Part shown: piece after piece, positions 22,310-32,178 of the stretch
How the letters are laid out: each line of letters opens with the position of its first letter
Numbering within the stretch: the stretch's first letter is position 1
Assembly (NCBI RefSeq): GCF_000330705.1
Contig: NZ_ANAM01000010.1
Location: 1-64,000, forward strand
Reading direction: 5' to 3'
Length of the DNA stretch: 64,000 nt
Source of the DNA: Salinicoccus carnicancri Crm
GTDB lineage: Bacteria; Bacillota; Bacilli; Staphylococcales; Salinicoccaceae
Position numbers and translations under genes: made by a program
Notes under the pieces: model-generated
What the model was told of the DNA's origin: nothing
The model's input: only the letters and a program-made list of their open reading frames with translations
Databases searched by the model: none

Positions 22310-23506
22310 ATGATAAATCTGGATACATTTGTTGCAAATGAACTCGGTATTTCATTGAATAATTTCATTTATAATTCCATCAGCGTTTTCAAGTACGACA
22401 GGCGTGAATTGAATGATTACATTATAAACAAATGTGATGAAAATCCGCTGGTCTACATAGATGAAGATAAACTTCCGCTCTCCGCCATCCCATCCAGAAG
22501 CGAAGACTCCCCGGGCATCCTCTCCGAACTGTCCACCCATTTCAACTGTACGCTCGATGACCGCAGGAGGGAAACAATGCAATTCATTCTGCATTCTCTG
22601 AGTCCATCCGGTTTTTTGGAAGCGCATCCAAATGAGGTTTCTGGCATCTCCGGTGCGCCTCCCGGAGAAGTAGATGAACTGCTGGAGCTGCTGAAAGCAT
22701 ACGAGGATAAGGGGATCGGATGCACAGATGTCTGTGATTTCCTGGCTTTTCAATTAAAAAATCAAGGTATATACGACAAAGGTCTATTCAGTTTATTCAT
22801 GTCGAACCTTGAAGACATTAACAGGGGCAATCTTGATTTCCTCGGGGAGGCCGCCAGAAATGAACTGCTGGGATATGTGAAGCTTATCACTGAATCCTGC
22901 ACCCTCTCTCCGATTGATGGAGGAGAAACCGAATATCTGGAACCGGATGCCACAATCTCCATCGACAGAAATACCTTCAATATCACCATCAACGATTACC
23001 TGTCTGACTGCATCACATTCGAACCCTTTGAAGTCCAGCCGGATGACAAGGATTTCAAAAAGAAGATGGAGAAATACAGGCAGGATTACGAGGAACTTTC
23101 TTCGATTCTGAATGCCAGAAAAATGTATCTGAGCAGTGTATTGACAATCATTGCGAACACACAGAAGTCATTTCTGCTGGGCGAGACAGATTTCCTCAAT
23201 CCATTGGACCAGAATGATCTGGCCGATGCAACTTCCCTCAGCCCTGCTACAATCAGCAGGCTGCTCGCCAACAAATTCATCGCCACACCGAAAGGGAGCC
23301 TGCCGGTCAAATCCCTGTTGTCGAAGAAATGCTGCAACGGTGCCTCCGTCAGCTATGCGATGCACCTGATCCAAAGCTTTTCAGGATTTGAAAAAATGCC
23401 GGACAGTAAAATTTCAAGCAAACTCGGAGAACTTGGCGTGAATCTCTCCAGAAGGACCGTAAACAAATATAAAAATCAGATATTAAGCCAAAAATTAAAG
23501 GATTAG
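22310..23506 (+). CDS. rpoN: RNA polymerase sigma-54 factor, divergent
   Basis: 398 residues, shorter than the usual 430-480. The C-terminal DNA-binding domain is clear: an HTH around ATSLSPATISRLLANKFIATPKG (about 305-330) and the RpoN box LSRRTVNKYKNQ (379-390), which reads the -24 element. The N-terminal region I (about 20-50, VFKYDRRELNDYIINKCDENPLVYI) aligns with the NPLLE-ending activator-interacting region but lacks its Gln/Leu richness. Such genes are absent from Staphylococcus and rare in its relatives. It is convergent with the hydroxyproline operon, whose other end carries a sigma-54 activator gene, suggesting a local regulatory module. AAAGGGGG precedes the ATG; the stop lies inside the terminator stem. 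Confidence 0.88.
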   Translation: MINLDTFVANELGISLNNFIYNSISVFKYDRRELNDYIINKCDENPLVYIDEDKLPLSAIPSRSEDSPGILSELSTHFNCTLDDRRRETMQFILHSLSPSGFLEAHPNEVSGISGAPPGEVDELLELLKAYEDKGIGCTDVCDFLAFQLKNQGIYDKGLFSLFMSNLEDINRGNLDFLGEAARNELLGYVKLITESCTLSPIDGGETEYLEPDATISIDRNTFNITINDYLSDCITFEPFEVQPDDKDFKKKMEKYRQDYEELSSILNARKMYLSSVLTIIANTQKSFLLGETDFLNPLDQNDLADATSLSPATISRLLANKFIATPKGSLPVKSLLSKKCCNGASVSYAMHLIQSFSGFEKMPDSKISSKLGELGVNLSRRTVNKYKNQILSQKLKD

Positions 23507-23563: not shown

Positions 23564-24445
23564 CTAATCCAGTTTTTCCATCAGGGACTTCAGCTGACTG
23601 ACCTCGTCATCGGTGAGCCCCAGTCTCGGTTTACGGGACGGCCCGCCGGCCAGCCCTTTCAGATCCATCGCCTTTTTGACGATCTGGACGTATTTGCCGG
23701 AGTCCTCGAGGAATTCACACAGCGGCAGCAGATCTTTGTTGAGCGTTTTGGCTTCATCATACTTGCCCGCCTTCACCAGTTCATACAGCTGTGCCGCGCT
23801 GTTCGGGGCGATGTTGGCCGCCACCGACACCCAGCCGGTTGCCCCCTGTACGAAGGACTCAAATGCCAGGTCATCGGAACCGCAGAACAATACGAGATCC
23901 GTATTGTCGGCGACCGCCCGCACTTTGCGGATGTCCCCGCTCGACTCCTTGATGTACTGCACCTTGTCCAGCTCCCTGTCAATCCGGCAGATGGTTGCAT
24001 CTTCCAGGTTCACGTTCGCAGTGAACGGGTTATTGTACATCATGAGCGGTTGGGTCACTACATCATTCACATCCTTGAACTGATGGAACGCCTCTTCCTC
24101 CGTCGGTGTCTGATAGAAGGAATTGATGAGCAGCAGCCCGTCCGCATGGTTGGCTTCGGCATGCCGGGCATACTCGATGACCTTGCTCGTCCGTTCGTCG
24201 GCAATGCCGACCAGAAGCGCGGTGTCCGTATCCTTCACCATCGGGCCGACCAGTTCCACGATCTTTTTCTTCTCCGCTTCATCCAGTGAGGCAAACTCAC
24301 CGGTGCTGCCCACGATGACGATCCCCGCCGCCTGCTGATCCAGATAATACTGGACGTTCGCTTTCATGCCTTCGTAGTTGACGCTGTAATCCCCATGCAT
24401 CGGTGTAATCAATACCGGGAACGCTCCTTCAAACTGTTTTTTCAT
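23564..24445 (-). CDS. DapA-family enzyme, probable 1-pyrroline-4-hydroxy-2-carboxylate deaminase
   Basis: 293 residues, the normal length for the dihydrodipicolinate synthase / N-acetylneuraminate lyase family. Visible: IVGSTGEFASLD (GxTGE), MMYNNPF with Tyr137, and the Schiff-base lysine Lys166 in YIKESSGD. With a hydroxyproline epimerase and D-amino-acid-type oxidase in the same operon, the best assignment is the deaminase that converts pyrroline-4-hydroxy-2-carboxylate to 2-oxoglutarate semialdehyde, a known family role in hydroxyproline catabolism. The ATG at 24445 follows GGAGG with an eleven-base spacer; it overlaps the end of the carrier gene by 17 bases. Lysine biosynthesis is an unlikely role in this context. 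Confidence 0.82.
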   Translation of the reverse strand: MKKQFEGAFPVLITPMHGDYSVNYEGMKANVQYYLDQQAAGIVIVGSTGEFASLDEAEKKKIVELVGPMVKDTDTALLVGIADERTSKVIEYARHAEANHADGLLLINSFYQTPTEEEAFHQFKDVNDVVTQPLMMYNNPFTANVNLEDATICRIDRELDKVQYIKESSGDIRKVRAVADNTDLVLFCGSDDLAFESFVQGATGWVSVAANIAPNSAAQLYELVKAGKYDEAKTLNKDLLPLCEFLEDSGKYVQIVKKAMDLKGLAGGPSRKPRLGLTDDEVSQLKSLMEKLD

Positions 24446-25889
24446 AGATTTTGTATCCTCCATTTTCTTCATTATTTTCGTCATCCTCTTTATCACGTGC
24501 TTTTTCATATTCGTCTTTCTCCATTATGAACAAACCAAAATAACCGTAGATCAGCGAAATGATCATGACCAGGAACCCGTACCAGAAGAACGGCAGATAG
24601 GCAAGTGTCGCAACCCCCAGTGTAGTCGCCATGAATACACCGCCGTCAGACCATGGCACCATCGGGGTCGTCACGGTCCCACCGGCTTCGACATTTCTCG
24701 AGAGCAGTGTGCGGCTCACATTTTTGCGGTCGTAGTTCTCTTCGGTGATCTTGGAACCCGTAAGCAGTGACACATATGCTGCACCACCGAAGAATACGCC
24801 GAAGAACGATGCAAGCATTGTTGTGAGTGTCAAATTGCCGGTGTTATTCGCCCATCCGGCAAACAGGTTGCCGATTACTGTAAATGCACCGATCGCCTGC
24901 AAAAGACCACCCACGCCAAGTGCCAGGATGATCAGCAGGATCACTTCAAGCATGAATGTGATGCCACCGCGGTTAAGCAGACTGTCGATGAATGCAATAC
25001 CGGTATTCTGCTCGCTTCCGGAATACAGCGTCTGTATCGCTTCAATGAAGGCATACCCCTGGAACCAGGCTGCCCACAGGCTGCCCAGCAGGGCACCGAA
25101 AAGTATCACAGGTACAGATGGCATCCTCAATATGAGCATTACTATGACTACGAGGGCAGGAATCAGCATCACCCATGATATTTCAAATGTTTCCTGGAGT
25201 CCCGCCATCGTATTCCGGGCAATGGAAAGATCCCCGCTGCCGTCATGGAATACGGCCCCGGCAATCCAGTACATGATTCCGGCGATTATAAAGGCAGGCA
25301 CCGATACATATGACATCGACCGTATATGCCTGAACAGTTCCACTTTGGATAAGGATGCCGTCATTACAGTCGTATCCGACAACGGCGACATCTTGTCGCC
25401 TGTGTAACAGCCGGAGATGACCGCCCCGGCAACAAGCGCAGTCGGCAGACCGAAACTTTCTCCAATCCCCATCATCGCAATCCCTGCAGTTCCTGCGGCA
25501 CCGAATGAAGTCCCCGTGGATATGGCAGTGATGGCGCATATGACCATTGCGGCCATCAGAAAGATGCTCGGACTGATGATGCTGAGTCCGTAGTAGATCA
25601 TGGTCGGCACCACGCCGCCCGCAATCCAGGACCCGATCAGGGCACCAACCGCTATAAGTATCAAAATCGCACCCATTCCTTCGTAAATCCCTTTCAGCAA
25701 TCCTTTCTCCATCTCAAGATAGCCATATCCCAGATACAGGCCAAATCCCATGATCATGAACCATACAGTGAGCAGTGCCAGCTGTATCGGCAATTCTAAA
25801 ATGACTATGAAACCAAACATTATCACAACGAACAATCCGAGTATCGTGAGCAGAACCCCAAGACCCGGAAGTCTTTTCTCCCTTGTCAT
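24429..25889 (-). CDS. NhaC-family carrier, possibly hydroxyproline uptake
   Basis: 486 residues with about twelve membrane helices, of the NhaC Na+/H+ antiporter family: GTSFGAAGTAGIAMMGIGESFG, ISGCYTGDKMSPLSDTT (the family signature GAxFGDKxSPLSDT) and GGTVTTPMVPWSDGG. NhaC-type proteins in amino-acid catabolic operons are often substrate carriers or exchangers rather than pure sodium exporters. Here, between the deaminase and racemase-like genes, transport of hydroxyproline or its epimer coupled to sodium is the best guess (inference). A polar C-terminal tail rich in Asp, Glu and Asn follows the last helix. Confidence 0.85.
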   Translation of the reverse strand: MTREKRLPGLGVLLTILGLFVVIMFGFIVILELPIQLALLTVWFMIMGFGLYLGYGYLEMEKGLLKGIYEGMGAILILIAVGALIGSWIAGGVVPTMIYYGLSIISPSIFLMAAMVICAITAISTGTSFGAAGTAGIAMMGIGESFGLPTALVAGAVISGCYTGDKMSPLSDTTVMTASLSKVELFRHIRSMSYVSVPAFIIAGIMYWIAGAVFHDGSGDLSIARNTMAGLQETFEISWVMLIPALVVIVMLILRMPSVPVILFGALLGSLWAAWFQGYAFIEAIQTLYSGSEQNTGIAFIDSLLNRGGITFMLEVILLIILALGVGGLLQAIGAFTVIGNLFAGWANNTGNLTLTTMLASFFGVFFGGAAYVSLLTGSKITEENYDRKNVSRTLLSRNVEAGGTVTTPMVPWSDGGVFMATTLGVATLAYLPFFWYGFLVMIISLIYGYFGLFIMEKDEYEKARDKEDDENNEENGGYKIYEKTV

Positions 25890-25904: not shown

Positions 25905-26651
25905 TTATTTAATGACAAAACCTTCCCTGTATATATCCGTGCTGTCGATGTAGAACTGTGAATTGGCAACCAGTTGATACCGATGTGGGAAGCTGCCATT
26001 TTGGATTTTGATATCCTCCCCGTTCAATGTCGTCATTCTTCCGCCGCAGGATATGCCATCCAGCAGCGAAACCACTTCAATTATCGGATAGGGCAGAATA
26101 TCATTGCTTTCATTCGCGACTGTGTGTTTCCCATCGTTGTGCAAAACCAGATAATCGTAAGTTCCATCGTTCAGATTTTCAATTTCCTCCTTCATTCCAG
26201 TGATGTTCTGAATCTCCAGAATCATCCCGGTTGCTGCCAGTTTCAACCTTTTTCCATTCACAATATACAGACCACGGTCGTCAGCGACATCATACAACGG
26301 TGTCTCTTCAAGACCCTCGTGGTCATAAACCACCACTTCACCTTCAATGTCTACGGAGTAGCTGCCACGGACAGCTATCCTGCCCCTGTCGACCAGGGAC
26401 GACAGGAAAGACTTCACCAGTATCCCCCGGTTCTCAATCCCGTTGGCCGAATCGATTGAAATTTCCAAGGAACCATTGTCATTCTCATGAAATGTCAACA
26501 GGTTCATGTATTTGCTCCCCCTCGGCTCATTCAACATCAGCTCCGCCACGTCAAAACCATCAGGCCCCGCCTCGAGTTCACTTCTTCCAACCACCCTCAG
26601 AACCTGACCGTATACGTGGATGTCATAACTGTTCACTGTTTTTACAATCAT
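25905..26651 (-). CDS. Truncated, cysteine-less proline racemase paralogue
   Basis: About 248 residues. The N-terminus follows the proline racemase pattern: DIHVYGQVLRVV (DxHxxGxxxRVV) and LMLNEPRGSKYMNLLTF (LMxEPRGHxxM). The C-terminus, ANSQFYIDSTDIYREGFVI, matches the family ending (GxAxxxGxxxFxxDxxDPFxxGF). Both catalytic cysteine boxes (MCGHGTIG and SPCGTGT in the active family) are absent; the only cysteine is in GISCGG and is out of place. It is about 90 residues shorter than the active epimerase next door, whose stop codon overlaps its start (ATGA). The frame is open and has a strong GGAGGTGG site, so it is likely expressed. A binding, regulatory or subunit role is possible; no function is known to me. 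Confidence 0.72.
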   Translation of the reverse strand: MIVKTVNSYDIHVYGQVLRVVGRSELEAGPDGFDVAELMLNEPRGSKYMNLLTFHENDNGSLEISIDSANGIENRGILVKSFLSSLVDRGRIAVRGSYSVDIEGEVVVYDHEGLEETPLYDVADDRGLYIVNGKRLKLAATGMILEIQNITGMKEEIENLNDGTYDYLVLHNDGKHTVANESNDILPYPIIEVVSLLDGISCGGRMTTLNGEDIKIQNGSFPHRYQLVANSQFYIDSTDIYREGFVIK

Positions 26652-27664
26652 ACTTCCACCTCCGCCAACTCCGGAATAAGAAGATAGCCTTCCTGCAGGG
26701 GATCGGAGCCGTTCATATAAAAGTCGTGCCGGGCCATGATCCATGCTGATCCGGTAATGGACACCTTGTTGAAAATGATGCCGTCCTCCTCCCTGGTGCT
26801 GAGGAGACGGGCCCTGAAAAGTGACCCTGTAATACTTTCATGGATAAAAGTCTCATCCCGGGAAATTCCCCCTTCTTTGTACAGAGTGGCGACTTTGGCA
26901 CATGTCCCTGTACCGCACGGCGAGCGATCGATGCCGCCCGGCGGGACAATTACAGTATTTTTGACAACATCCCCCGCTTCGTAAAGCTCCATATGCGTGA
27001 GCTTATTTATGAATGGATATTCAGGGTGCCTGACTTCATGACAGCCGTTGATTGCGTCACGCACTGCCATCGCAGTTGCGACAATCTCCTCAGAATTGTC
27101 CGTATCAAGGGTGAGCCCCAGGTCGTCCGCTTTGATGATGCCGTAGAAGTTCCCGCCATATGCAATGTCACACTGCACATCACGTCCTTCGAAATGGACA
27201 GTCACTGTCTTCAGATGGAAAGACTCCGTACTGACGAATGTCACTTCTGAAACTTTTCCACCTTCCACTCTGCATTCCGCTTCAACGATGCCGGCAGGTG
27301 TATCGAGCACGACTGAAGTGATGGGTTCAACCGGCTCTACATAACCCATCTCAACCAGAGCCGTACAAGTGCCGATGGTATCGTGCCCACACATCGGGAG
27401 ATAGCCCCCGGTCTCTATGAATATCACACTGTAGTCAGCCCCGGGGGCAAGCGGCGGAAGCAGGATTGTTCCACTCATGACATCATGGCCGCGCGGCGGA
27501 TTCACCAGGAACTTCCTGATGTGGTCATGGTTCTCTTTCATGTCGAGCATCTTTTCCTGGATCGTATCACCGGCGAGCGCCGGCATCCCCGACAACACAG
27601 TCCGGGTCGGGTTGCCGCCCGTATGCGTATCCAGCGTTACAAACTGTTTGCTGTTCTGGTTCAT
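26648..27664 (-). CDS. 4-hydroxyproline 2-epimerase (proline racemase family)
   Basis: 338 residues, full family length. Both catalytic cysteines are present: Cys92 in MCGHDTIG and Cys250 in GGIDRSPCGTGTCAKVA, which distinguishes an epimerase/racemase from the threonine-containing trans-3-hydroxyproline dehydratases. THTGGNPTRTV and PPRGHDVMSG are the other family boxes. It should convert trans-4-hydroxy-L-proline to cis-4-hydroxy-D-proline, the substrate of the dehydrogenase encoded around it. The start overlaps the stop of the preceding oxidase gene by four bases. Proline racemase activity is the alternative; the deaminase and multi-subunit dehydrogenase favour hydroxyproline. Confidence 0.88.
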   Translation of the reverse strand: MNQNSKQFVTLDTHTGGNPTRTVLSGMPALAGDTIQEKMLDMKENHDHIRKFLVNPPRGHDVMSGTILLPPLAPGADYSVIFIETGGYLPMCGHDTIGTCTALVEMGYVEPVEPITSVVLDTPAGIVEAECRVEGGKVSEVTFVSTESFHLKTVTVHFEGRDVQCDIAYGGNFYGIIKADDLGLTLDTDNSEEIVATAMAVRDAINGCHEVRHPEYPFINKLTHMELYEAGDVVKNTVIVPPGGIDRSPCGTGTCAKVATLYKEGGISRDETFIHESITGSLFRARLLSTREEDGIIFNKVSITGSAWIMARHDFYMNGSDPLQEGYLLIPELAEVEV

Positions 27665-28839
27665 GCGTGCACCTCCCTGAATCTGTTGATATCAAGCGGA
27701 CTGATGTCATCTTCAAGCGTATCCGTCATCATCTGGGAAACCCAGAGGCCGGTTATTGCCGACAACCCTATGCCATCCCCTTCATGCCCCGCTGCAATGT
27801 AGAAGCCCGGCACCTTTGTTTCGGACAGGATGGGCAGATGATCCGGCGTCCACGGCCGCAGGCCGGCATAGCTGCGGATGATGTCCATGTCCTTCATCTG
27901 CGGGAAATACTCGATCGCCCGCCGGGCAATGAGCCGGATGATTTTATGATCCACCTTGGTATCGAACCCGGTAAATTCGCGGCTGCTCCCCAGCAGGAAA
28001 TTCTGACTTTCGGTTGCCTCATGGACGAGTGCTATGCCGTAGTCGTTCATCTCCTCAGACGCTTCCCGCTCCCTGCCGAACTTCGTCATCAAGTATCCGA
28101 ATTCCTGTATTTTGCGCGTTCCCATGAGTTCAGATCGTGATGCTACAAGAATATGGCCTTTCCTCGGCTTGATCGGTACATACAGGCCGAGCATGTCCGC
28201 CACTGCCGGTGCCTGGACACCGGCAGCATTGATGACCTTGCCGGCTTTAAATACGTCGCCATGGGAAGACACTTTGAAGTATCCCCCTCCCGCCCGTTCG
28301 ACATCCGTCACCCGGGTGTGTTCGAATAGTGAAAAATCGTATTTCTTCGCCTGATGCACCAACGAAAAAGTGAGCATATACGGGTTAACCGTTGAATCGT
28401 TCGTACACTCGACCCCCCCGGTCAGATGCTCTGAAAAGTATCTGGAATCATTTTTCAAGTCTTCTTTCGTCAGTTTCCTGAAAAATTCCTGGCCCTCATT
28501 TTTGAAGTTGTGCAGGTCCGCCCATTCATATGCCTGTTCGAGCTCGTCCTCATTCGCACACAGGAAAATGCTGCCGGGATGGCGGAATTCGAATTTCATT
28601 TCCAGTTCATGGGAAAGCTCCTTGATCAGAGCCTGGCTTTTTATCGCCATCCGGCTGTCGAACCCCGGCTCTTTATCAATCAGCAGTACATTCCCGTCGC
28701 ATTTGGAACTCGTACCTGAGGCGAGGGTGCCGGATTCCAGCAGCGCAACTTTCAGCCCTGTTTTCGCAGTATAGTAAGCGATGCTTGCCCCGATGATTCC
28801 CCCGCCTATGACCAATACATCATAAATATCTCTGTTCAA
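27661..28839 (-). CDS. D-hydroxyproline dehydrogenase, DAO-type FAD subunit
   Basis: 392 residues of the DadA/glycine oxidase family: N-terminal FAD site DVLVIGGGIIGASIAYYTAKTG, central VINAAGVQAPAVADMLG, and C-terminal GLRPWTPDHLPILSETKVPGFYIAAGHEGDGIGLS. It matches the beta (HcnC-like) subunit of membrane-linked D-hydroxyproline dehydrogenases, which need a second FAD subunit and iron-sulfur subunits; those are encoded at 30397-32178. The likely start is TTG at 28839, after AAGGAGGTGG; an upstream TTG in frame overlaps that site. First gene of the minus-strand operon, just behind the TGGCAT element at 28869-28887. Confidence 0.82.
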   Translation of the reverse strand: MNRDIYDVLVIGGGIIGASIAYYTAKTGLKVALLESGTLASGTSSKCDGNVLLIDKEPGFDSRMAIKSQALIKELSHELEMKFEFRHPGSIFLCANEDELEQAYEWADLHNFKNEGQEFFRKLTKEDLKNDSRYFSEHLTGGVECTNDSTVNPYMLTFSLVHQAKKYDFSLFEHTRVTDVERAGGGYFKVSSHGDVFKAGKVINAAGVQAPAVADMLGLYVPIKPRKGHILVASRSELMGTRKIQEFGYLMTKFGREREASEEMNDYGIALVHEATESQNFLLGSSREFTGFDTKVDHKIIRLIARRAIEYFPQMKDMDIIRSYAGLRPWTPDHLPILSETKVPGFYIAAGHEGDGIGLSAITGLWVSQMMTDTLEDDISPLDINRFREVHA

Positions 28840-28868
28840 TGAACCAGACCACCTCCTTCTATAAATCC

Positions 28869-28887
28869 CCAAGAAAAAAGAATGCCA
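28869..28887 (-). promoter_or_regulatory. Sigma-54-like promoter of the hydroxyproline operon
   Basis: On the minus strand TGGCATTCTTTTTTCTTGG. Compared with TGGCAC-N5-TTGCW it gives TGGCAT-N5-TTTCT, with the -24 GG and the -12 C correctly spaced and one G changed to T. The same element, with two differences, precedes the other operon at 30346. Confidence 0.55.
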
Positions 28888-28979: not shown

Positions 28980-30344
28980 ATGTTGGAGAAAGCCATTATT
29001 AAAGAATTGATCAACTTCCACAACCATTCATTCACGATTATCGATAAACAGGAGAATGTCATCTACTGGAGCGACAGGGCGGCAGAAATTTTCGGCATGA
29101 GCAATGAATATGTAATCGGCAAAAAGATCACCGAAGTCTTTAAAGAAGAGCACCTGGTCATGCTTGCCTCACTCAGGGAAAATAGGACAATCGTCAAAAA
29201 GCAGCATAAGGCGACGAACGATATATATGTAGATATAAAGTCCATGCCCATACTGATTGATGGTGAAATCGCAGGCGCCATCGTCTCCGAAGTCAATGTC
29301 ACAGAACAGAAGCGGCAGCAGGAACAGATTGAAACGCTGAAGAATAAAGTAAGCGTGCTCTCCGACAACATGAAAAAGCTGAAAAGCAGCAATTTCAGGA
29401 ATATCATATATAAGAGCTCTGTCATGGAGCACGTCAAAACCCGGATTGAAAAAGCGGCAAAGACAAATGCAAATATACTCATTACCGGAGAAACCGGCGT
29501 AGGCAAGGAACTATTCGCCAAATCCATCCATGACACAAGCGATGTATCAGGGGAATTCATCCCGATCAACTGCGGTGCCATCCCAGGCCACCTGTTTGAA
29601 TCAGAGCTTTTCGGCTATGAAAAAGGGGCATTCACCGGTGCAAACCGGGAAGGCAACAGAGGAAAGATCGAACTTGCTGAGAACGGGACCCTGTTCCTGG
29701 ATGAGATGGGGGACATGCCGCTTGATATGCAGGTGAAATTCCTCAGGGTGCTTCAGGAAAAACGGTACTTCAAACTCGGCGGCAACAAGGAGAAGTCAGC
29801 CAACTTCAGGCTCGTCTCGGCCACCAACAGGAAGATTTCCGACCTTCTGGCATCCGACGATTTCAGGTCGGACCTGCTGTACAGGATCAATGTCGTCAAC
29901 ATCCACGTACCGCCTCTCAGAGAGCGGCCCGATGACATAGAATCACTGTTCTTCTACTACCTCTACAGCCTGTCTGAGAAGTATGGGACCAGTGTCAAAT
30001 ACGCCAACCAGCAGCTCATCAACCGTTTGAAGGCATATCATTGGCCGGGCAATGTCAGAGAACTCATCAACGTCATCGAAAGGCTGGTCATCTTCTCAAA
30101 CGATGAAGCGCTGAACAACGAAATTTTCGACCAGTATTTGACCGAGGTCGGCGAGGATGCAAAGCAGCCTTCCCTCCCCTCCATCGATGAAGAACTAGAA
30201 CTCAAGGATTATGTTGAGAAAGTGGAGGCGGATTATATCCGTCATGTCCTCGAGGACAATGGCCAGAACATCGAAAAGGCGAGCAGATCACTCGGCATCA
30301 GCCGCCCCACCCTCTATGCCAAAGTTAAGAGATTCGGTCTGTAG
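28980..30344 (+). CDS. Sigma-54-dependent activator (PAS, AAA+, Fis-type HTH)
   Basis: 454 residues. A PAS domain (about 10-108) is followed by a coiled coil (110-138) and an AAA+ ATPase domain (about 140-375) with Walker A GETGVGKE (170-177), the sigma-54-contacting loop GAFTGA (216-221) and Walker B TLFLDEMGD. The C-terminal Fis-type HTH is ENGQNIEKASRSLGISRPTLYAKVKRFGL in pieces at about 426-454. All features required to drive sigma-54 open-complex formation are present. The PAS domain probably senses a hydroxyproline-pathway metabolite. It is divergent from the oxidase-epimerase operon and directly upstream of the iron-sulfur/FAD subunit operon. AAAAGGGGA precedes the ATG. Confidence 0.92.
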   Translation: MLEKAIIKELINFHNHSFTIIDKQENVIYWSDRAAEIFGMSNEYVIGKKITEVFKEEHLVMLASLRENRTIVKKQHKATNDIYVDIKSMPILIDGEIAGAIVSEVNVTEQKRQQEQIETLKNKVSVLSDNMKKLKSSNFRNIIYKSSVMEHVKTRIEKAAKTNANILITGETGVGKELFAKSIHDTSDVSGEFIPINCGAIPGHLFESELFGYEKGAFTGANREGNRGKIELAENGTLFLDEMGDMPLDMQVKFLRVLQEKRYFKLGGNKEKSANFRLVSATNRKISDLLASDDFRSDLLYRINVVNIHVPPLRERPDDIESLFFYYLYSLSEKYGTSVKYANQQLINRLKAYHWPGNVRELINVIERLVIFSNDEALNNEIFDQYLTEVGEDAKQPSLPSIDEELELKDYVEKVEADYIRHVLEDNGQNIEKASRSLGISRPTLYAKVKRFGL

Positions 30345-30345
30345 C

Positions 30346-30364
30346 TGGCATCTTTTTTTCTTGG
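30346..30364 (+). promoter_or_regulatory. Sigma-54-like promoter of the second hydroxyproline operon
   Basis: TGGCATCTTTTTTTCTTGG, starting two bases after the activator's stop codon and about 30 bases before the next gene's start. It matches the element at 28869-28887 (minus strand) at 17 of 19 positions, including the flanking AGC upstream. Confidence 0.55.
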
Positions 30365-30396
30365 CTGTTGATAAAAGGGGAAAGGAGGGCTCCCAT

Positions 30397-30672
30397 ATGA
30401 AGCAGGAAGATGATTTCGTCGTGTGCCGATGTGAAAACGTCTATTATTCGGAGCTTTTGAATATAATGGAGAATGGAGCGAACAATTCCAGGGAACTCAA
30501 ATTGAAGTCGCGGGCAGGCATGGGGTTCTGCGCTTCCCGTACATGCGGGCCGCTGCTTGAAAGACTGACCGGCGACCAGCATGAAGATTCACCAGGTTAT
30601 ATCCATCTGAAATCACAGCCGCCGATCCGGACCATCTCGATGAAAGAACTCTCAGGGGAGGGCGACACATGA
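30397..30672 (+). CDS. BFD-like [2Fe-2S] subunit of D-hydroxyproline dehydrogenase
   Basis: 91 residues with the four-cysteine BFD-type pattern: VCRCENVYYSE near the N-terminus, then RAGMGFCASRTCGPLLERL. In most HcnB/OoxA-type dehydrogenases this domain is fused to the C-terminus of the large FAD subunit; here it is a separate gene, and the FAD subunit at 30994 lacks it. It should pass electrons between the FAD subunits. ATG 30397 has AAAGGAGGG seven bases upstream. The stop overlaps the next start by four bases. Confidence 0.82.
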   Translation: MKQEDDFVVCRCENVYYSELLNIMENGANNSRELKLKSRAGMGFCASRTCGPLLERLTGDQHEDSPGYIHLKSQPPIRTISMKELSGEGDT

Positions 30673-31001
30673 CTGACAGGATAATGAACCATAAAATACT
30701 CGGCACCATCCAGCCCGAACTCGTCCCTTTCAGGTGGAATGGGGAAATCATTCATGGCGCAGAAGGAGAAAGCCTCGCAGCCGCACTGCTCGCAAATGGC
30801 ATAAGGACACTCAGGAGACATGAAAAAGATGGGAAACCAAGGGGCATCTACTGCAACATCGGCCACTGCTCAGAGTGCCGCGTCACTGTAAATGGGGAAA
30901 GGAACCAGAGGGCATGCCTCACCCCCGTTGAAAAAGGGATGGATGTCGAACAGCAGACAGAACTTCCCCATCTGGTGAAAGGTGATGACGCACATGTTTG
31001 A
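30669..31001 (+). CDS. 2Fe-2S ferredoxin-like subunit of D-hydroxyproline dehydrogenase
   Basis: 110 residues, Fer2_4-type small subunit (HcnA/gamma-like). The cluster motif RGIYCNIGHCSECRVTVNG followed by RACLTPVEKGMDV matches the family pattern CxxxxCxxC...C. FRWNGEIIHGAEGESLAAALLANG is the typical N-terminal beta-grasp start. Translationally coupled to the BFD-like gene (ATGA) and overlapping the FAD subunit gene. Together the small subunits form the electron path to the respiratory chain. Confidence 0.88.
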   Translation: MTDRIMNHKILGTIQPELVPFRWNGEIIHGAEGESLAAALLANGIRTLRRHEKDGKPRGIYCNIGHCSECRVTVNGERNQRACLTPVEKGMDVEQQTELPHLVKGDDAHV

Positions 31002-32178
31002 TACGATAATCATCGGCGCGGGGCCGGCCGGACTCAGCGCCGCCGGAATACTGCAGGAAAAACAGAAGGTTCTGGTCCTCGATGAATACTTCCATGCAGG
31101 GGGCAGACTTCTCGGACAGCTCTACGAAGAGAAAAAGGGAAAATGGTGGAACGGGCTGGAGATTGCCCGGAAGCTGGTCAGCGACACTCAGGATAAGACT
31201 GAAATCCGCCTGAGTACATCCGTATATGATGTCGAGTTGGATGACACCTATACTGTCCATACGACATCAGGCACCTTCAGATCCAGACACCTGATCATCG
31301 CCACCGGATCCCGGGAAAAGTCCAACCCTCTTCCAGAGTGGGATCTTCCAGGCGTAATGACGGTCGGCGCCGCCCAGGTGCTCACCAATTTCAGCCGCGT
31401 CAGGCCGGGGGACAAGGGGGTCATCGTCGGCATCAATCCATTGTCCATGGTCATCGCGATGGAGCTCGGCTATGCAGACATCGATGTCGCTAAAATATGT
31501 CTTCCCCCGGAAAACCTGCTCAGCACCCAGAAGCCCGAAGACGCCTTCGAAACACTCGTGTCACTTGGACATTCAGCCCCTTCCAGGTTCATTTCAACCG
31601 GGGCAGGATTGGCAGGAAAAGCAAAACCCATTCACCCCGCAGCACTAAAGCTGTTCCCAAAGAATGGAATCAGGGCCATGGGGCTCCCGATTTCCATCAA
31701 GGAGAAGATCATACGGATAAACGGCACGGAAAAGGTAGAATCCGTCACCGTCCAGAAGACCGATTCCAAAGGAAAGCCATTGAACGGCAAGACCAGGGAA
31801 GTAAAGTGCGACTTCGTGTGCATATCAGACGGACTCGCGCCGCTCAGTGAGATCGGCTCCCTTTTGAACCTCAAACATGTGTATGCAGAAAGCCTTGGCG
31901 GCTACGTCCCTCTCCACAGCGAAATGATGGAGACCGAGCTTCCAAACCTCTACGTCGCCGGAAACGTCACCGGCATAGAAAATGCCAAAGTCGCAATGTA
32001 TCAGGGGCAGCTCGCCGCCCATAAAATACTCGGCGACGAAGATGCAGCCATGCGCTCATTATCAGCCATCACACATGAAAGGAAAAACGCAAAAGTGAAG
32101 TTCCACAAAGATCTTTTGCAGGGACGGGAAACAGTAGAGACAATGTGGAGGGAGATTGAAAAAAGAAAGGCGGAATGA
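30994..32178 (+). CDS. D-hydroxyproline dehydrogenase, FAD/NAD-binding subunit
   Basis: 394 residues of the pyridine nucleotide-disulfide oxidoreductase fold, HcnB/OoxA-like: FDTIIIGAGPAGLSAAGIL at the N-terminus, LIIATGSREKSNPLPEW, LPGVMTVGAAQVLTNF, and PNLYVAGNVTGIENAKVAMYQG near the end. It stops before the BFD-like domain that usually completes this subunit, and that domain is encoded two genes upstream. I favour the ATG at 30994, seven bases after GGTGAT; GTG 30982 and ATG 30985 are alternatives. It overlaps the ferredoxin gene. Confidence 0.85.
   Translation: MFDTIIIGAGPAGLSAAGILQEKQKVLVLDEYFHAGGRLLGQLYEEKKGKWWNGLEIARKLVSDTQDKTEIRLSTSVYDVELDDTYTVHTTSGTFRSRHLIIATGSREKSNPLPEWDLPGVMTVGAAQVLTNFSRVRPGDKGVIVGINPLSMVIAMELGYADIDVAKICLPPENLLSTQKPEDAFETLVSLGHSAPSRFISTGAGLAGKAKPIHPAALKLFPKNGIRAMGLPISIKEKIIRINGTEKVESVTVQKTDSKGKPLNGKTREVKCDFVCISDGLAPLSEIGSLLNLKHVYAESLGGYVPLHSEMMETELPNLYVAGNVTGIENAKVAMYQGQLAAHKILGDEDAAMRSLSAITHERKNAKVKFHKDLLQGRETVETMWREIEKRKAE

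Follow-up and report, generated by a model that had tools for sequence, protein, structure and literature searches.

The window, that is, the whole 64,000-nucleotide stretch of Salinicoccus carnicancri Crm DNA that was analysed, carries on its reverse strand an operon in which a protein of 248 amino acids (P0001; 25905–26651; ATG start) is encoded directly behind a probable epimerase. The first operon gene (27661–28872, an open reading frame taken from its first TTG) encodes an FAD-dependent oxidoreductase (Pfam DAO, E = 4.2e-64) that, from the operon map, is probably a cis-4-hydroxy-D-proline oxidase subunit. Next comes a 338-residue, two-cysteine enzyme of the proline racemase family (26648–27664; Pfam PF05544, E = 5.9e-98), in which the EPRGH motif reads PPRGH and which the operon suggests to be a 4-hydroxyproline 2-epimerase. 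P0001, here called the partner, has no catalytic pair and a predicted proline racemase/DapF fold. Behind it lie the genes for an NhaC-type Na+/H+ antiporter-family transporter (24429–25889; NCBIfam TIGR00931 over cut-off) and for a DHDPS-family lyase (23564–24508; Pfam DHDPS, E = 6.3e-53), probably a pyrroline-4-hydroxy-2-carboxylate deaminase judging by the pathway. On the forward strand, divergent to the operon, are a PrdR/SoxR-like sigma-54-dependent activator (28980–30344) and, by operon comparison, soxC/soxD/soxA-like 2Fe–2S and FAD oxidase subunits (30211–32178, comprising 30211–30672, 30669–31001 and 30982–32178; the soxC start falls inside the first of these frames). The same strand encodes a small sigma-54 RpoN of 398 amino acids (22310–23506). 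The order soxA–soxD–soxC, divergent sigma-54 activator, then DAO, epimerase, partner, transporter, DHDPS and (ALDH) is common to Salinicoccus, Jeotgalicoccus, Lacicoccus, Oceanobacillus, family f6, Priestia and Bacillus badius, apart from genes lost or rearranged locally; two Oceanobacillus carry this operon with the short, window-type partner. The enzymes fit the trans-4-hydroxyproline route of B. cereus and others, as far as it is set out in PMC4113996.

A −24/−12-like promoter, TGGCATTCTTTTTTC, lies upstream of the operon (28873–28887, reverse strand), and a second −24/−12 site is found at 30346–30360 on the forward strand. The pattern is not enriched across the whole window (11 matches against 10.0 expected); it is where the sites lie, and their conservation, that gives them meaning. 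Before soxC it reads TGGCA[CT]-N5-TTTC, and not the usual TTGC, at 19 of 19 loci (17 in the window's family, two in Oceanobacillus), and the same TTTC pattern precedes the DAO gene at 16 of the 19; all five operons with the intermediate partner described below have TTGC. A shift in −12 preference may have occurred in the linked small RpoN, whose RpoN box contains RRTVNKYKN. Of the 33 genomes of the window's family, exactly the 19 with the operon give a Sigma54_DBD match and the remaining 14 give none, and sigma-54 seems to be private to the epimerase–partner operon there. Operon and partner are also plasmid-borne together in Priestia megaterium (plasmid typed as mobilizable) and in Bacillus badius (typed as non-mobilizable; loci L120 and L121), and may therefore move as a unit.

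Partner and epimerase genes share 4 bp, the ATG of the former overlapping the TGA of the latter. As an earlier note on this DNA had remarked, its ribosome-binding site is strong: GGAGGTGG, 5–12 nt upstream of the ATG and within the end of the epimerase coding sequence (26656–26663, reverse strand). That note had described a shortened, cysteine-less proline racemase paralogue, retaining the N-terminal motifs, EPRG and the C-terminal ending of the family and lacking the two catalytic boxes and about 90 residues. The sequence bears this anatomy out: Asp10, Gly15, Arg19, EPRG (42–45) and the C-terminal ending are kept, the CGHD and DRSPCGTGT boxes are absent and some 90 residues are missing. The word cysteine-less is not literally right, as the window protein has a single cysteine, Cys202, and its 18 aligned orthologues have from none to two.

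We looked at the two helix starts for any of the catalytic pairs of the superfamily, Cys/Cys, Ser/Cys, Ser/Thr or Cys/Thr, and the window partner has none of these. Among all 21 short partners collected, which range from 241 to 249 amino acids, Val or Ile stands at the second catalytic position throughout, and at the first 20 lack Cys; the exception, at locus L020, has a cysteine aligned there but lacks the accompanying His and Asp. These two residues, which coordinate the prolyl nitrogen according to the residue roles given in PMC4113996, are both absent from all 21 short partners and likewise from the 28 rows of the intermediate family. The earlier note had left the choice between a structural or regulatory partner, a substrate sensor and a new activity. 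With the catalytic pair and the prolyl-nitrogen ligands gone in 21 of 21, the evidence is against a sensor that uses the normal pocket; the first of these suggestions is the best-supported candidate.

Direct sequence comparison says little about the origin of the partner. None of 19 partner sequences matches PF05544 at E <= 1, let alone at the curated cut-off, and no family model in Pfam or NCBIfam claims the short form. BLASTP against the neighbouring epimerase aligns 21 residues with E = 0.033, a profile comparison (hhalign) of short partners with epimerases is in register with a probability of 0.9% and E = 0.059, and sequence searches of the PDB with the partner gave chance matches only. 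The pairwise and direct profile comparisons being unconvincing, homology rested on the predicted fold and on the intermediate family. The partner, predicted alone as a single chain, as the earlier note had proposed, takes a racemase fold in the model (pLDDT 86.2, pTM 0.87); Foldseek relates the model to hydroxyproline epimerases with E = 2e-12, and the structural match runs over the whole chain (Z = 17.1, 240 residues, 4.1 Å). The intermediate family, profiled from eight proteins of 290–318 amino acids without the catalytic pair, is matched by PF05544 in all eight tested, and its profile aligns end to end with that of the short partners (E = 8.5e-10) and with that of the epimerases (E = 3.9e-24). 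Judged by its model, the partner is a diverged member of the proline racemase fold, of the two-lobed DapF type, and the profiles of the intermediate family indicate common descent with the superfamily. The kinship claimed in the earlier note thus stands by way of fold and intermediates; the partner–epimerase pair alone is insufficient for it, and the partner probably did not arise by duplication of its neighbour. The C-terminal tail of the partner model has low predicted confidence, which we considered as a sign of a missing binding partner and dropped, the control model of the epimerase (pLDDT 75.5 only, from a shallow alignment) being equally poor there.

Orthologues of the partner are present in 19 of the 100 genomes searched, its own included, the other 18 being 36–75% identical to it; with the two from Oceanobacillus they make up the 21 short partners. 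The closest named matches are from Salinicoccus, then Jeotgalicoccus, Lacicoccus and the two Oceanobacillus (18 loci, at least four genera); Oceanobacillus we take to belong to a different family from that of the window. By the NG86 method dN/dS was 0.108–0.279 for the partner in all ten pairs and 0.050–0.122 for the epimerase in nine of ten, the epimerase pair L004/L005 being left out because at a dS of 0.009 the ratio is unusable (NG86 0.72, ML 1.48). Other estimators placed the partner higher in some pairs, up to 0.45 with YN00, which gave no value for three comparisons, and up to 0.50 with maximum likelihood (L004/L005); a maximum-likelihood value of 1.01 for the partner pair L019/L020, against 0.14 by NG86, comes from a fit that looks unsound. 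The partner is under purifying selection, less tight than that on the epimerase.

A decaying duplicate on its way to being lost was the outcome that, in the earlier note, missing orthologues or relaxed selection would have revealed; neither was found, and its remark that the gene shows no stops and is not decaying proved sound. The partner has a dN/dS 1.2 to 4.6 times that of the epimerase (NG86, nine usable pairs) and has lost about 90 residues, as decay would have it, and the intermediate forms resemble steps of erosion. Set against this are NG86 values below 0.3 in ten of ten pairs, the absence of internal stops from 19 of 19 sequences, 34 invariant columns and the occurrence in at least four genera. 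We regard decay as largely refuted and very improbable. Since the partner is kept by selection and stands beside a working enzyme in each genome in which we met it, it is probably a non-catalytic partner subunit.

The survey of co-occurrence with two-cysteine epimerases that had been suggested from the sequence gave the same answer in two groups: all 21 short partners lie directly behind an epimerase gene, as do all 22 intermediate partners of family f6 (22 of 151 genomes), where the spacing is −4 to +15 nt by the first start codon of the open reading frame. In the window's family each of the 19 genomes with a partner has the adjoining epimerase, and two others (G002 and G022) hold a full-length racemase of another type, outside this operon and without a partner. 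At the loci examined, every short or intermediate copy had an epimerase next to it. The reverse, an epimerase always with a partner, does not hold in all lineages. Genome G197 (locus L085) has the same operon, with activator and oxidase and no partner; in genus g40 (75 genomes searched, 14 matching) six have a second copy and eight the epimerase alone. The same epimerase type also occurs elsewhere with an intact second racemase. Taken together, these cases show that a partner is not generally required.

The shared operon and the selection would also fit an independent function of the partner. In one rival reading it would regulate the sigma-54 activator or the oxidase rather than the epimerase. 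Genes for activator and oxidase are present in nearly all mapped operons with a partner, and the E. coli RppH–DapF complex (6d13 and 6vck, both encountered in the fold search) provides a case of a DapF fold bound to an unrelated enzyme. Yet it is the upstream gene that is constant, an epimerase at all 21 short, 22 f6 and six Ser/Gly loci, whereas the gene downstream may be NhaC, DHDPS or APC in the mapped operons, and the operon of G197 has its activator and oxidase without the partner; we consider such a regulator improbable. Much the same small chance is given to a folding helper that assists the epimerase and stays outside the finished enzyme. Coupled translation would suit such a helper, and proteins of the superfamily cluster that includes an epimerase of B. 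cereus ATCC 14579, which we infer to be BC2835, were too insoluble to purify according to PMC4113996; the neighbouring BC2834 (soxF) may, by its synteny, be a homologue of the partner. Insolubility has many causes, however, and the pattern of conservation singles out the dimer surface.

That pattern is uneven. The best conserved stretches of the partner are residues 1–19, 41–50 and 230–247. A dimerization domain and a mobile jaw have been described in a homologue (see PMC9309405). Of the 34 invariant columns of the partner, 31 fall among the 136 positions of the dimerization lobe and C-terminal strand and three among the 112 of the jaw. The odds ratio for invariance, lobe against jaw, is 10.7 in the partner and 1.9 in the epimerase (109/184 versus 66/154); the lobe limits are of our choosing, and alternative limits gave the same picture. 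DapF-fold enzymes dimerize through a strand, as reported in PMC11602996, to which residues 230–247 of the partner would correspond in our own assignment from the sequence alignment; a conserved C-terminal tail is a feature of the superfamily and not confined to the partner. We also tried the entropy contrast between the lobes as a sign peculiar to the partner and rejected it, the jaw/lobe contrast in mean column entropy being 1.37 in the partner and stronger, 1.74, in the epimerase.

The same alignment bears on whether the partner has been remodelled for a new activity or ligand, with residues fixed in its family handling a non-proline compound in the old cleft. Asn74, directly before the first cysteine position, and Glu192, two residues after the second, are invariant in 19 of 19 orthologues and in both Oceanobacillus proteins, Glu192 being one of only three invariant positions in the jaw, and superfamily members with Ser/Cys or Ser/Thr in place of Cys/Cys are active enzymes by the account in PMC4113996. 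With these two residues fixed next to the old cysteine sites, the partner may bind a new ligand. The jaw, though, forms half of the cleft and is poorly conserved and shorter than that of the epimerase (112 against 154 positions within our lobe limits), the prolyl-nitrogen His and Asp have been lost from short and intermediate forms alike, and every copy seen adjoins an epimerase. A new activity is, on balance, rather unlikely.

The window partner belongs to a wider series in the Bacilli that occupies mostly one operon slot. One genome has an intact Cys/Cys second racemase in this slot (L079). Genus g40 has a 340-residue copy with Ser and Gly for the cysteines and with His and Asp kept, beside an epimerase in six of six. 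Proteins of 282–318 amino acids without the catalytic pair follow, the intermediate forms having Lys or His at the first position and Gly, Ser or Asn at the second in all 28 rows, and the 241–249-residue short form is the last. A profile search with the orthologues matched four of 398 genomes of the class: the window's own, two of its genus, and G336, where a 304-residue protein without the catalytic pair is encoded by a gene overlapping that of a two-cysteine epimerase by 4 bp. Matches to the intermediate profile outside the class, where retrieved as loci, are Cys/Cys except at L127, L129, L137 and L155, where the second site is Thr. Two further variants were met. Behind soxA at L084 (10312–11331, forward strand) is a second racemase copy with Glu for the first cysteine (MEGHD) and the second kept (SPCSSA); a 336-residue protein at L190 (genome G944) keeps the first cysteine and has Gly for the second (DRSPGGT), with no second racemase found within the stretch examined.

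A tree was built from 77 of 139 distinct sequences, including 12 short and eight intermediate forms; L048, a copy of the second racemase type with an in-frame TGA, is among the 139 and was left out of the tree. The short forms make one clade (100/100) and the intermediate forms another (99/100), and the two group together with one Glu/Cys copy (99/97) beside the second racemase type, apart from the epimerases that adjoin them. Descent of the partner from that type is our moderately confident reading, and the tree led us to reject the alternative, duplication of the adjacent epimerase, again with moderate confidence given the long branches. The stem of the short partners is very long (4.04), with a warning of long-branch joining from the tree program, so that the exact join may be false. 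The link between short and intermediate forms is supported independently of the tree by their profile comparison.

In the 197 distinct superfamily sequences collected, PPRGH is found in all 21 epimerases with a short partner and nowhere else; the other 176, including the 21 short partners and 28 intermediate partner rows themselves, have EPRG, as did 118 of 139 in an earlier set. Both sets include a few cut-off copies (e.g. L067, L123 and L124). The most plausible history is a single loss of this glutamate, on one stem, and not 21 losses. That loss fell in the lineage with the most strongly shortened partner, which is what one would expect of an enzyme and a partner that depend on one another, and since the epimerase has lost a Glu kept by the partner and by all others collected, the enzyme may depend on its partner here. 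A stronger form of this idea is an obligate two-gene epimerase, the end point of the stepwise series, in which a catalytic subunit without the EPRGH Glu works only as a heterodimer and the dead paralogue supplies the Glu. We think this rather unlikely.

Our preferred reading, whose chance of being right we put at about even, is that the partner is a pseudoenzyme subunit dimerizing with the adjacent hydroxyproline 2-epimerase, a putative heterodimer with a putative effect. A pseudoenzyme of the racemase superfamily would have become an accessory subunit of its neighbour, descending, less certainly in view of the long branches, from the second racemase type of which an intact copy still occupies the same slot in one genome. 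Coupled translation would make the two proteins together; they would pair through the C-terminal β-strand surface used by DapF-fold enzymes for homodimerization, and the partner would stabilize or tune the active subunit. Two features of a prozyme-type, dead-enzyme partner are present: catalytic residues lost under purifying selection, and co-occurrence with the epimerase at 19/19 and 22/22.

A literature search found no paper describing such an epimerase partner, in keeping with the earlier note, which knew of none; superfamily clusters lacking one or both cysteines have been noted in general terms in a study in eLife (2014), and the plasmid relatives are annotated as 'proline racemase family protein'. 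A possible counterpart is soxF (HD73_3144) of B. thuringiensis, likened to the partner by its synteny, since its gene too lies between one for a proline racemase and one for DHDPS; PMC4428206 and PMC4941409 list it as a hypothetical protein in the sigma-54/SoxR-controlled sox locus. With the proline racemase superfamily (PF05544; 4-hydroxyproline 2-epimerase, proline racemase and trans-3-hydroxyproline dehydratase) the partner shares the DapF-type fold over the full chain, the D...G...R residues, EPRG, the C-terminal strand, the GF ending and an operon with a two-Cys member, but it differs in having lost the catalytic pair with the His and Asp, in being about 90 residues shorter and in going unrecognized by Pfam and NCBIfam. 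The 282–318-residue proteins without the catalytic pair, which bear that annotation on the Priestia megaterium and Bacillus badius plasmids (L120 and L121) and occur in f6 and f14 too, resemble the short partner in their slot behind the epimerase and in end-to-end homology; they are longer, are matched by PF05544 and mostly keep RSP at the second box, and their epimerases, unlike that of the window, keep EPRGH. Annotation would be corrected accordingly, as the Pfam and NCBIfam models miss the short form and the intermediate form carries a racemase-family name without the catalytic pair.

Dead paralogues acting as partners are a familiar phenomenon, best known from eukaryotes. To our knowledge, stepwise series from paralogue to partner with living intermediates are few, and we know of no heteromeric member of the proline racemase superfamily; an obligate pair would be the first, if true. 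Here one kind of operon shows intact copies, full-length ones devoid of the catalytic cysteines, shortened ones and minimal ones beside the same type of active enzyme, which makes the change from paralogue to subunit testable by exchanging partners between stages. The nearest parallel is with the prozymes, whose fold is different from that of the partner. These are dead paralogues that activate their enzyme as heteromers, as described for trypanosome AdoMetDC and deoxyhypusine synthase in PMC5201418 and PMC3663545. Heteromer and activation are reported there and would be expected here, where the pair is bacterial and encoded in one operon; as in the trypanosome systems, a dead paralogue has been kept with its active enzyme.
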